The notes under the pieces were generated by a model, which ran no database searches, was not told the origin of the DNA, and saw only the letters and a list, made by a program, of their open reading frames with translations. From assembly GCA_011523635.1 (NCBI GenBank), contig WTGI01000043.1, positions 36,581 through 100,580 on the forward strand: 64,000 nucleotides of DNA, read 5' to 3'. How positions within the stretch are numbered: position 1 is the stretch's first letter; each line of letters begins with the position of its first letter. Positions 3,523 to 25,532 of the stretch are shown here, one piece after another. A program made the position numbers and the translations under genes. This DNA comes from Acidimicrobiia bacterium. Its GTDB lineage: Bacteria; Actinomycetota; Acidimicrobiia; Spongiisociales; Spongiisociaceae.

Positions 3523-4488
3523 ATGGGCGAAATCGAAGCGACTTGGGACTTTCGCGACCCGTACCTCTGGATGCAGAAGACTGCCAGGAGTTCGCTACCG
3601 CCCCTGATCATCACCGCGGCCATCAGCGGCGGCGGCCATGGCAAGGAGTCGAATCCGGCCCTACCGGAGACCCCGGAGGAGCAGGCGGAGGAAGCCCGGA
3701 GGGCATACGAGGCCGGCGCGTCGCAGATACACGTGCATGTGCGCGATCCCGACGACTGGAGTCAATGCACCGGCAACCCCGACGACTACGGGAAGGTCAA
3801 CGGGATGATCCGGGAGTTGTGCCCGGATGTGATCATCAACAACAGCACCGGCGGCGGTCCCACCCTGACCACGGAGGAACGTTACTCGCCGCTGTTCGCC
3901 GACCCTGCCCCTGACGTGGCCACTCTCAACCTGGGTCCTTTCGTGTCCAAATTCACCATGCCCGAGCGGCCGTCCGACCTTCCCCATCCCCGCGGGCCGG
4001 TCGAATACGACATGTGCAGCGGCACGACCTACGGTGAACTGAACCACTACGCGTCCGTGATCGCCGAGCGCGGGATGAAGCCGGAGTTGGAGATCTACGA
4101 CCCGGGCCAGTACTGGGTCCTTCGTGATCTGATCTACAACGACAACGTGACGCCCCCTTACATGGTGCAGTTCGTCCTGGGCGCCCAGACCGCGTCGTTC
4201 CCGACCCCCGCCAACCTCATGTCGCTCATCAGCGAACTCCCGGCCGGAGCGCTGTACTCCGTGATCGGCACCGGGCCGTTCCAGATCCCGATGAACGTCC
4301 TGGGAATCCTGCTCGGAGGCCATGTGCGGGTCGGCTTGGAGGACAACATCTACTACCGGCGGGGCGAGAAGGCCACCGGCAACGCCCAGCTGGTGAGCCG
4401 TATCCGGAGGATCGCCGAGGACATGAACCGCGAGATCGCCACCCCCGCCCAGGCCCGCCAGATGCTGGGCCTCCCGCAGGTCGCATGA
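3523..4488 (+). CDS. Beta-keto acid cleavage enzyme family (BKACE, DUF849)
   Basis: IITAAISGGGHGKESNPALPETPEEQAEEARRAYEAGASQIHVHVRDP ... VRVGLEDNIYYRRGEKATGNAQLV; ATG at 3523 inside ORF 3496-4488. Confidence 0.9.
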   Translation: MGEIEATWDFRDPYLWMQKTARSSLPPLIITAAISGGGHGKESNPALPETPEEQAEEARRAYEAGASQIHVHVRDPDDWSQCTGNPDDYGKVNGMIRELCPDVIINNSTGGGPTLTTEERYSPLFADPAPDVATLNLGPFVSKFTMPERPSDLPHPRGPVEYDMCSGTTYGELNHYASVIAERGMKPELEIYDPGQYWVLRDLIYNDNVTPPYMVQFVLGAQTASFPTPANLMSLISELPAGALYSVIGTGPFQIPMNVLGILLGGHVRVGLEDNIYYRRGEKATGNAQLVSRIRRIAEDMNREIATPAQARQMLGLPQVA

Positions 4489-9831: not shown

Positions 9832-10149
9832 TCAACCGAGCGCGAGCACCGTTTGTAGAGCCGTGTCGACTCCCCATTGTTCTTCTGGTGTGAGATGCCC
9901 GGCGAGGTCCCCGAGGCGCGTAACGTCGACAGCACCGACGTGTTCGACAAGCACCCGGGTCAGGACCCCTTCTATCTCGATCTCTGGTCGGAACGACGCT
10001 GGTCTCGCACTCGTAGACGTGGGTGCCACCAATACTACGGAGCGGGGCAGGAGTGGATCGGCCTGCACGACGACCCCGTACCGGGGTCCGTATTGTTCGT
10101 GCCCCACTCCCTTTGGTAGCCGTAACACGAAGATGTCACCCCGGCGCAC
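9832..10149 (-). CDS. MazF/PemK-type endoribonuclease toxin
   Basis: MRRGDIFVLRLPKGVGHEQYGPRYGVVVQADPL ... VLVAPTST; overlaps the upstream RHH gene by 14 nt. Confidence 0.85.
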   Translation of the reverse strand: MRRGDIFVLRLPKGVGHEQYGPRYGVVVQADPLLPRSVVLVAPTSTSARPASFRPEIEIEGVLTRVLVEHVGAVDVTRLGDLAGHLTPEEQWGVDTALQTVLALG

Positions 10150-21912: not shown

Positions 21913-22917
21913 GTGACGCGCCCGCTAGTCGCGGGCGTCGAAGGTCCCGACACGCCATCTCGCGACTGGTCCATCGAGCGCGACCTGCTCGATGCGGCGG
22001 GCGCCGCCCTCGTGACGTCCATCTGCGCGAGCGAGGAGGAGGCGGCCGCGGCCTTGCGCGACGCCGACGCCGGGCTCGTCCACACGAGCCCGATCACCGA
22101 GGTAATCCTGAACGTCGCCTCGAGATGCCGCGCCTTGATCCTCGGCGGCGTCGGCCACGAGCACGTGGATCTGGAGCTTGCCGCCGAGCGCGGGATCGCG
22201 GTCGCCAACGTGCCGGACTACTGCGTCGAGGAGGTGTCGGATCACGCCCTCGCGCTGCTTCTGGCCCTAGCCAGAGGCCTGATCCCCTTGGATGCGAGCA
22301 GCCGTCGGGGCGATTGGAACCATCTGGGCGGAGGCAGGCTCACACGCATCCGGGGATGCCGGCTCGGTCTCTACGGATTCGGCCGTATTGCTCGCCGGCT
22401 CGCGGACAAGGCACGTGGTATCGGGCTCGCGGTCATGGCGTTCGACCCATACGTCGACCGCTCAGAGATGGAGGAAGCCTCGGTGACGCCGGCGGAGAGC
22501 CTGGCTCAGCTTCTCGGCTCTTCGGACTTCGTGTCGCTGCACACCCATCAGACGCCGGAGACGGAGAACGTGATCAACGCAGCTTCGATCCGGCTGATGA
22601 AACCGGGGGCCCGGCTCATCAACGTGTCGCGTGGCGCCCTGATCGAGGAGGGGGCACTCTACGAGGCCCTCCGCTCCGGGCACCTCGCGGGGGCGGCCCT
22701 CGACGTGATGGCCGTGGAGCCGTTCGACATAACCAGCCCGCTTCTGCGGCTCGACAACCTGGTCGTCACGCCGCACGCCGCGTGGTACTCGGAGCAGTCC
22801 GGCCGCGAGCTGAGCAGAAAGATGGTGGGCGCAGCGATCCAGGCCCTACGAGGCGAGCTTCCCGACCACACGATCAACGCACAAGCAGAGCCACGCTTCC
22901 CATGGCTCGATTCGTAG
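21913..22917 (+). CDS. D-isomer-specific 2-hydroxyacid dehydrogenase (CtBP/SerA-like)
   Basis: GCRLGLYGFGRIARRLADKARGIG, FVSLHTHQTPETENVINAASIRLMKPGARLINVSRGALIEEGAL; GTG start. Confidence 0.9.
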   Translation: MTRPLVAGVEGPDTPSRDWSIERDLLDAAGAALVTSICASEEEAAAALRDADAGLVHTSPITEVILNVASRCRALILGGVGHEHVDLELAAERGIAVANVPDYCVEEVSDHALALLLALARGLIPLDASSRRGDWNHLGGGRLTRIRGCRLGLYGFGRIARRLADKARGIGLAVMAFDPYVDRSEMEEASVTPAESLAQLLGSSDFVSLHTHQTPETENVINAASIRLMKPGARLINVSRGALIEEGALYEALRSGHLAGAALDVMAVEPFDITSPLLRLDNLVVTPHAAWYSEQSGRELSRKMVGAAIQALRGELPDHTINAQAEPRFPWLDS

Positions 22918-23085: not shown

Positions 23086-23110
23086 GGTGGAGCTGAGGGA
23101 TTTGAACCCC
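23086..23110 (-). repeat. tRNA-Ala 3'-end fragment (putative att-site remnant)
   Basis: GGTGGAGCTGAGGGATTTGAACCCC matches the T-arm/acceptor 3' end plus CCA of tRNA-Ala at 24760-24785 with a single 1-nt gap. Confidence 0.7.
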
Positions 23111-23214
23111 GAACGCCTTTCCACTGTGTTTCCCCTGTTAGATAGGGTTTCCGCTCCCCTCGGTGACACTCTCGGTAACACCATTCCCTCCCGGATCGGT
23201 CGGACTCCCTCGGC

Positions 23215-23691
23215 CTAGTAACCCGCGCACTTCCCGGACTCGTGTGTCCCGTCATGGTTCGTGCCTGGGTGGGTGTGCTTCGGGTGTCCCGCGTGCCAAT
23301 GGGTACAAGTTCCCGAAGGTGGCGGCGTGGTCGTGGTAGTTGTAGTGGTCGTGACCTCAACTTCGTCCGCAACCATGCTGTGGAGTAGTGCCATCATGTC
23401 GGCGCGGGTGAAGTCCGGGTTGCTGAACTGATCGTCACCGTTGGCACCGAGCACCTGGTCGTAGAACCGTGCCATGAAGATCAGGGCATGACTCCGGCTC
23501 AACGGCTCATCCGGCCGAAACGTACCGTCTCCATACCCGAGGGTAATCTCGTTATCCGCTGCCCACTCGATAGCTTCCACGGGGTGGTCGTGTGTCACAT
23601 CGGTGAACCGACTGTGGGCCGCGAGAGCGCCGCCTGCGATAACCAGGACCATCAGGCCACCTAATACCCACCCAAACTTCTTACGCCTCAT
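23215..23691 (-). CDS. Secreted single S-layer-homology (SLH) domain protein with Thr-rich linker and His/Cys-rich C-terminal module
   Basis: MRRKKFGWVLGGLMVLVIAGGALA signal/TM, RFTDVTHDHPVEAIEWAADNEITLGYGDGTFRPDEPLSRSHALIFMARF, then TTTTTTTTTTPPPSGTCTHWHAGHPKHTHPGTNHDGTHESGKCAGY. Confidence 0.75.
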   Translation of the reverse strand: MRRKKFGWVLGGLMVLVIAGGALAAHSRFTDVTHDHPVEAIEWAADNEITLGYGDGTFRPDEPLSRSHALIFMARFYDQVLGANGDDQFSNPDFTRADMMALLHSMVADEVEVTTTTTTTTTPPPSGTCTHWHAGHPKHTHPGTNHDGTHESGKCAGY

Positions 23692-23746
23692 TTGATGGCC
23701 CTCCGGTCTTCGGTCAAGCGATGAATTTAGTCGCCTCTCACCCGTC

Positions 23747-24738
23747 TCAGGATGAGAGATCACGCCCAGCCGTTCCATCTGTTCCACCAGATCCTCCTTT
23801 TTCGAGATCGAGGCCCACGGCATCCGCCGCCGTCTCGAAGGTTGCTCCCGCCTCGATCAGGCTGGCGATCGCCCTAGCGTTGCCCGTCACGTCCGAGGCC
23901 CTGAGCCCTCTCCAGGACAGGGAGACGTCTTGCCCCATCTTCCGGGCCAGTTCCTCGGTCACCAGATCCCCAAGAGGCGATATCACGCCGTGAAATGTGA
24001 TGCGCCATGCTTCCCGCAGAGCCGCCGAGTCACTGGATCCGAACCCGAACATTTGCGGGGGGATACCGCACGCCGCCAAGACCTCCCGGGTAGCCGATTC
24101 GCAGAGCTTCACCAGAGCATCCGGGGGAGAGGCCCCGAGCCGTTGAGGTGTCCAGCCTCCGCTCGGTGACGTCTGCGGGGCTTGTTCGGTCCACTGGCCG
24201 CTCGATTGCGATTCCACCACCGCCAGGGCCCTGGCGAGAGTCTTCAGGTCTTCCTTCAGCTTCCGCACGGTCGGGTCTTCCCCGTCGACCGGGATCGGCA
24301 ACAGGTAGCCCCTAGTCCCTGCCACCTCGTCTCCTAGAGCGTGCACCAGCTCGGCCGAGAGCCGCCCGGCCATAGCCGCCGACTCGATCGGGCCGACCCC
24401 GTACCAGGCCGCTCCGGGTGGGTGGAATAGCGAAGGTGGATCACGTCCTGGGCCCGATACGTCTTCCGGGTCCCGCCGTCCGGGCCCGCCAGTTCGACCG
24501 AACAACGCCAGGACTCCGGGTCATAGGTTCCCGTGATATCCCATGAGGAAGCAGGAACCAGCCGGAGATCCCCTGTGGCAACCAGGACAACCTCACCGCC
24601 CCGGATCAGCGCCCGGCCCGCCATTGCTCTGGTCCTGGTGTCGAAGGCTCTCCGGATTACCCAGGGCGACCGCACCGTCTCGAAAGTTCCCCCTGGATCG
24701 GCATCTCCCCTGCTAACGGCCTGATTTTGAGACAACAT
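23747..24738 (-). pseudogene. Frameshifted phage portal protein remnant (HK97-like)
   Basis: Two overlapping − strand ORFs in different frames read as one protein: N-part RALIRGGEVVLVATGDLRLVPASSWDI...YRAQDVIHLRYSTHPE (24334-24738), C-part AAWYGVGPIESAAMAGRLSAELV...TREVLAACGIPPQMFGFGSSDSAALREAWRITFHGVISPL (23747-24505); frame break near 24410-24430. Confidence 0.7.
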
Positions 24739-24761
24739 GGGACGAAAGGTCTTCGTGGTGG

Positions 24762-24835
24762 TGGAGCTGAGGGGATTTGAACCCCTGACCCCCTCGTTGC
24801 GAACGAGGTGCTCTGCCGAACTGAGCTACAGCCCC
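24762..24835 (-). tRNA. tRNA-Ala (anticodon CGC), CCA encoded at 24759-24761
   Basis: Reverse complement GGGGCTGTAGCTCAGTTCGGCAGAGCACCTCGTTCGCAACGAGGGGGTCAGGGGTTCAAATCCCCTCAGCTCCA folds as a 74-nt cloverleaf; anticodon loop TTCGCAA. Confidence 0.95.
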
Positions 24836-24893: not shown

Positions 24894-25532
24894 TCAATCA
24901 GGCTCGCGCCGGGTGTGGAAGGCGGCAATGTCCTGCCGGAGACGGTCCGCCACCAGGGCCGAGGTCAGATCGGCCCTGCTCCGTTCCGTGAGGCTGCGGG
25001 CGACGTCGGTGGTACGGCGCAGGCCGCCGGTCATGCCGTCGGGATAGTCGAGCGAGGCCAGGAGGTCCACCACCTCGTCCATGATCTCCAGCAGCCGCTC
25101 CGCCTCGGCGAAATCTCCCGCTCTCAGCTGATCGAGGAGCCTGCGCCTCAACTCCCCCACGGCTTCGCCCAGGCCGTTGAGATAGGGCGCCATCCGCGTT
25201 CCCAACTCCGAGGCCGCCGGAAGCTCGTCCCCCCTGGCCATGGCCAGGAACAGATGCGCCTCGGCGTACTCCTTGGCCGCGTCGTTGAGGATCCCGATCC
25301 TGATGTCGGGATGATCTGCGATGGCGGCGGCCGATTCGGCCAGCAATTTCCCGGCCTCGGCCAGCATCGCCCCGGCTTCGTTCAACTCACCCCGATGACC
25401 GGCGCGGATCGCCTTGGCGGACAACCGAATGACCCGCCGCCCGTTGGAGATAGCCACCTCCCGGGCCGCGAACTTGGGATCCAACTCGGCTCGCGCCGCC
25501 TTCTCGATGGGGGACAGGTCTGGCTTGCTCAC
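24894..25532 (-). CDS. Translin-like family helical protein
   Basis: All-helical; C-terminal GLRRTTDVARSLTERSRADLTSALVADRLR resembles the translin RR-DVARSLIEKTRGDLT signature. Confidence 0.6.
   Translation of the reverse strand: MSKPDLSPIEKAARAELDPKFAAREVAISNGRRVIRLSAKAIRAGHRGELNEAGAMLAEAGKLLAESAAAIADHPDIRIGILNDAAKEYAEAHLFLAMARGDELPAASELGTRMAPYLNGLGEAVGELRRRLLDQLRAGDFAEAERLLEIMDEVVDLLASLDYPDGMTGGLRRTTDVARSLTERSRADLTSALVADRLRQDIAAFHTRREPD

Follow-up and report, generated by a model that had tools for sequence, protein, structure and literature searches.

An alanine tRNA gene in the genome of an uncultured Acidimicrobiia bacterium (G000) shares its 3' end with a second, isolated copy, and the 1.65 kb bracketed by the two copies hold a broken phage gene and an intact gene for a secreted protein. 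What left this arrangement behind? The locus lies in a stretch of 64,000 nucleotides that was analysed as a whole (hereafter, the window). The most probable answer, at roughly 0.9, is that a compact phage-like element with its own integrase inserted in the 3' end of tRNA-Ala(CGC) and later lost most of its genes by deletion, the bracketed region being what remains. The original prediction of integration into the tRNA 3' end followed by massive deletion draws support from empty sites in relatives, an occupied site in one of them (G005), the homology of the portal gene and the position of a putative integrase-binding motif.

The alanine tRNA gene, its repeat and the chromosomal flanks

ARAGORN detects a single tRNA in the window, an intact tRNA-Ala(CGC) on the minus strand (24759..24835), which is also the target gene in G001, G005 and G007 and which would here have been restored by attL. 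The 3' end of this gene is the att core (attL; 24760..24785, minus strand), held in common with the attR copies of G001, G005 and G007, and the second copy (attR; 23086..23110, minus strand) is one base shorter. The two sequences, GGTGGAGCTGAGGGATTTGAACCCC at 23086-23110 and GGTGGAGCTGAGGGGATTTGAACCCC at 24760-24785, are in direct orientation and agree at 25 of 26 positions, with one missing base; the expected number of matches of such quality in shuffled windows is 0.00. The repeat originally described is real. It had been described as including the CCA end, which is correct for the CC of the encoded CCA in the 23086 copy but not for the final A, in place of which the next base is a G.

Outward from the 23086 copy, the sequence runs on into the chromosomal flank in the same way as in relatives with an empty site. 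The nearest gene on this side encodes a D-2-hydroxyacid dehydrogenase (21913..22917, plus strand; PF02826/PF00389); the same gene adjoins tRNA-Ala in G004 and G008, and in G005 and G007 its neighbour is attR. On the tRNA side, a conserved chromosomal gene (24894..25532, minus strand) adjoins tRNA-Ala in relatives from the same genus, with 89–92% identity. In the congeneric genomes G004 (contig C40) and G008 (C51), the dehydrogenase gene is followed by tRNA-Ala within ~55 and ~140 nt, and the gene after the tRNA is the same as in the window; in each, the repeat is present as a single copy, the tRNA itself. The original prediction was open to refutation by element-free relatives that still carry the 23086 repeat, and these two genomes do not. 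The dehydrogenase flank recurs in G007, where it runs into a core copy of full length with foreign DNA beyond. A second pair of genomes tells the same for this tRNA: in G003 (empty) and G001 (occupied), the outer arm is identical up to the core, where G003 has the tRNA and G001 has a core copy followed by an island. The comparison of empty and occupied relatives, all of them draft assemblies, thus identifies the outer side of the 23086 copy as old chromosome and the copy itself as having come with the insertion. The comparison with close relatives that had been suggested for this locus yielded empty sites (G004 and G008) and, in the same tRNA, a phage-like element of the same family (G005).

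Next to the tRNA of the window, a segment of 40 nt is ~65% similar by eye to the flank in G003 and was considered as a possible trace of another element. In other families of the order, copies of the tRNA-Ala 3' end, beside or apart from tRNA-Ala genes, bracket 2–10 kb (L041:451-476 and 9976-10001 in G036; L043:6-31 and 3837-3863 in G038; also L040 and L042); these are likely to represent more islands or scars.

A broken portal gene and an intact SLH gene

The repeats bracket the portal remnant, then the SLH gene, both on the minus strand, and searches that included Pfam and PHROG found no integrase between the att copies, in agreement with the original description. The portal remnant (23747..24693, minus strand) is broken twice: the first ~55 codons are missing, and a frameshift near 24,41x splits the rest between two frames. 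With the portal protein of G004 as the tblastn query, residues 56-157 align to 24693-24406 at 45% identity and residues 130-360 to 24487-23810 at 52% identity; identity to the G005 portal is 32–36%. An HMM search of this ORF against portal families, proposed as a check of the predicted frameshifted portal remnant, gave a match to PF04860 (E 3.3e-7) with a score of 30.3 bits, below the curated cut-off of 39.1, and a match to PHROG 12 (portal) at 3e-4; the assignment holds because the remnant is homologous to the complete portals of the relatives, so that the decisive evidence is comparative. In the Pfam search, PF04860 finds neither of the intact portals, that of G004 or that of G005, and the family would therefore be missed by Pfam alone. 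An AlphaFold2 model of the G004 portal was discarded (pLDDT 36).

Used as a query, the G004 portal found no relative among viral contigs and only G004 itself in the genome collection; among the 296 genomes of the class, it retrieved only G000, G004, G005 and a 61-residue piece in G246, so that by this portal search the family is rare (4 of the 296). Besides the remnant of the window, broken portals of this family stand isolated in two other genomes, at L053:9716-10596 (G013:C146) and L074:11345-11524 (G246:C69), and it seems that fragments of the portal are what decay tends to leave. Between the portal remnant of the window and the G004 portal, dN/dS is ~0.27. The 65 nt between the remnant and the tRNA 3' end (24694..24758), the probable deletion junction, match no integrase, phage gene or arm motif.

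The SLH gene described between the repeats is there and intact (23215..23691, minus strand; PF00395, E 1.6e-11); it encodes a secreted protein of 158 aa with a His-rich C-terminus and properly begins at 23691, not 23823. Its homologues are 76% identical in G005 (C28) and 75% identical in G007 (C35), the latter having a different domain inserted before the shared His-rich tail. The comparison with G005 gives dN 0.155, dS 1.30 and dN/dS of ~0.12, and that of the SLH domain with G007 gives dN/dS of 0.20; by these substitution rates, the gene looks to be under constraint. It may be retained cargo of the element; no SLH gene was seen inside any intact element. The His-rich C-terminal tail, CTHWHAGHPKHTHPGTNHDGTH (window:23215-23310; L032, L033 and L057), is common to otherwise unlike secreted proteins of the genus, with or without SLH domains.

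Relatives of the probable lost element and the proposed course of its decay

Two related elements indicate what may have been lost. In G005, the same tRNA is followed on contig C26 by genes for an integrase (PF00589, with central and arm-binding domains), terminase, capsid-like protein, protease, connector and portal, and then by the contig end; the other boundary, a 33-nt core copy beside the dehydrogenase gene, lies on contig C38, the element running off the contig ends. The element of G004 is complete (10,354 bp; L052:7594-17958 on G004:C32) and occupies another site, between dop and pup (names assigned from the sequences in this analysis), where it is bounded by the 11-bp repeat TTTCGCGGACA; this site is empty in six genomes of the genus, G000 included. 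Its genes encode integrase, terminase (large subunit; PHROG 9, E 2e-46), a capsid-like protein, an S78 prohead protease (E 1e-12), connector, a head-completion protein (E 2.8e-6) and a portal protein of 362 aa; the portal is assigned by homology and the capsid by position only, without an HMM match. Among the ORFs called, with part of the small ORFs scanned, no tail gene was recognised. Compared gene by gene, the elements of G004 and G005 are mostly 30–51% identical. In the G004 element, the portal is the gene nearest to the distal att, 265 nt away, so that a remnant that keeps the distal end (portal, cargo and attR), as in the window, is what would be expected.

The locus would then have formed in two steps. 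A phage-like element would have entered the 3' end of tRNA-Ala(CGC), its integration restoring the tRNA at attL and leaving a copy of the 3' end at attR (23086-23110). A later deletion, of some 8.6 kb as estimated from the G005 map, would have removed the attP arm on the tRNA side together with the genes for integrase, terminase, capsid and protease, and would have cut 55 codons from the start of the portal gene. The attR-proximal end would have survived, and with it the remaining portal gene (now frameshifted), the SLH gene as intact cargo and an attR arm that carries the putative integrase-binding motif. We infer the deletion event; among the points that weigh against the proposed course are that an intact form of the window allele was not seen among the relatives, that the portal remnant is nearer to the portal of G004, from a different site, than to that of G005, from the same site, and that the SLH gene does not occur in any intact element seen.

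The strongest competitor is a composite origin, in which two or more elements would have used this tRNA successively and recombination between them would have brought together att sites, SLH gene and portal piece of different descent. The islands at tRNA-Ala(CGC), a hotspot, differ among G001, G005, G007 and G010, and an integrase ~55% identical to that of G005 follows the same tRNA in G001, G007 and G010. In G001 and G007, an Hma-type defence set lies on the attR side of the island: HmaA, HmaB and HmaC were identified in G007 (L031:10082-20000 and L045; G007:C40), where the island's own tyrosine integrase adjoins the tRNA, and G001 has the same first two Hma genes (L051:8735-16001; G001:C151). 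The variety of islands would favour a mixed origin. So would an additional, gene-bearing segment of ~620 nt that separates attR from the dehydrogenase gene in G005, and the location of the SLH relatives of G005 on a contig without phage genes. However, the window contains only two att copies, no internal boundary is visible, and the portal and SLH genes are 55 bp apart on one strand; the composite origin is the less likely reading.

On the inner side of attR, the window and G005 match at 18 of 22 positions, 52 and 46 nt from the core, respectively, a similarity that was equalled in 4 of 300 shuffles and is only moderately unusual when taken alone. In the window, this segment contains a paired heptamer, GTGACAC-N5-GTAACAC (23163..23181), with the heptamers 12 bp apart; the pair is the only match to the motif in the window (expected 0.00). 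The pattern GTGWCAC-N5-GTRWCAC was written after the window and one G005 arm had been seen; it then also matched the other arm of G005, on the integrase side, whose sequence had played no part in its formulation. Among 16 genomes, G000 has it once (in the scar, 52 nt inside attR), G005 has it on the two arms of the element and nowhere else, and G018 has it once, in a housekeeping region. Its position and spacing, together with the arm-binding domain of the integrase, mark the pair as a probable integrase site of the arm type, from the attP that would have been lost.

The same motif bears on whether the scar can still move. As a non-autonomous element, it could be excised by an integrase acting in trans, given that neither att core has been lost, nor the attR arm motif, and that the genome has one intact tyrosine integrase of the same family (L076:1589-2737 on G000:C35), 50% identical to the tRNA-Ala integrase of G005. 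On the tRNA side of the window, though, no arm motif was found, the attR core is one base short, and the integrase in question is not beside a tRNA, so that continued mobilisation appears quite improbable. With the attL arm gone and the attR core shortened, the scar is probably immobile at present. An assembly chimera of a phage contig and the tRNA locus, conceivable for a draft genome of 91 contigs, was rejected as very improbable on the grounds that the locus is embedded 40 kb deep in a contig of 100.6 kb, with synteny on both flanks, and that the attR arm motif is specific to elements of tRNA-Ala. The remaining idea is that no element ever entered the site and that the repeat at 23086 matches by chance or is a second tRNA gone degenerate (short 3'-half matches being common among tRNAs, whose T-arms are conserved). 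It has next to no chance of being right: the match is confined to the 3' 25 nt, tRNA detection gives nothing at that position, the expected number of matches is 0.00, and the empty sites, which do not have the copy, refute it.

The probable scar among known mobile elements

With no integrase of its own between the repeats, and with structural genes that are incomplete, down to the broken portal, the region is filed as a remnant and not as a prophage; it combines a direct repeat at the far boundary, single-copy empty sites on the same flank and a phage structural gene inside. It is well established that tRNA genes can be hotspots for unlike cargo, e.g. the asn-tDNA of Klebsiella (PMC4891358), and with the prophages and islands of such sites the locus shares the tRNA 3' end as core, the direct repeat at the far end, strain-varying cargo and integrase-encoding relatives in the site, whereas the window has lost the integrase and most genes, and the host belongs to an uncultured lineage of Acidimicrobiia. 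In the literature on ICEs, elements that have kept their att sites and lost the integration genes are known as CIMEs (PMC5704250). The window likewise has two att cores (that of attR one base short) that bracket cargo without an integrase, but the scar derives from a phage-like, not a conjugative, element, and the damage to the attR core and the attL arm makes mobilisation unlikely.

The element of G004 is comparable to the capsid-forming PICIs (defined in PMC10690885; tyrosine-integrase PICI candidates of Mycobacterium also occupy tRNA genes, PMC10654092) in that its 10.35 kb encode integrase, terminase, capsid-like protein, protease, connector and portal, with no recognised tail gene; it differs from them in having the portal after the capsid and protease, and it is known from its genes alone, with the capsid assigned by position only. 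By gene content, elements of this type may be satellites. It is tentatively suggested, as a reading with somewhat less than even chances, that the parent belonged to an undescribed, tail-less, capsid-encoding satellite family of Acidimicrobiia, in which the portal follows the capsid and integration is either at tRNA-Ala or between dop and pup, and that the window holds a fossil of it whose host-surface SLH cargo is still under selection.

The scar itself is a case of ordinary prophage decay, a new instance of a familiar fossil in a little-studied bacterial group, and alone leaves the general understanding unchanged. It does provide a clean and checkable example of how a prophage decays in a tRNA hotspot: within one genus of an uncultured lineage, the site occurs empty, occupied and scarred, and the same tRNA-Ala(CGC) alternately houses an Hma defence island and elements of the phage-like type. 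Outside the window lies something less ordinary, a rare and compact family of head-gene elements without recognised tail genes; possibly tail-less, this family is a better lead than the scar.
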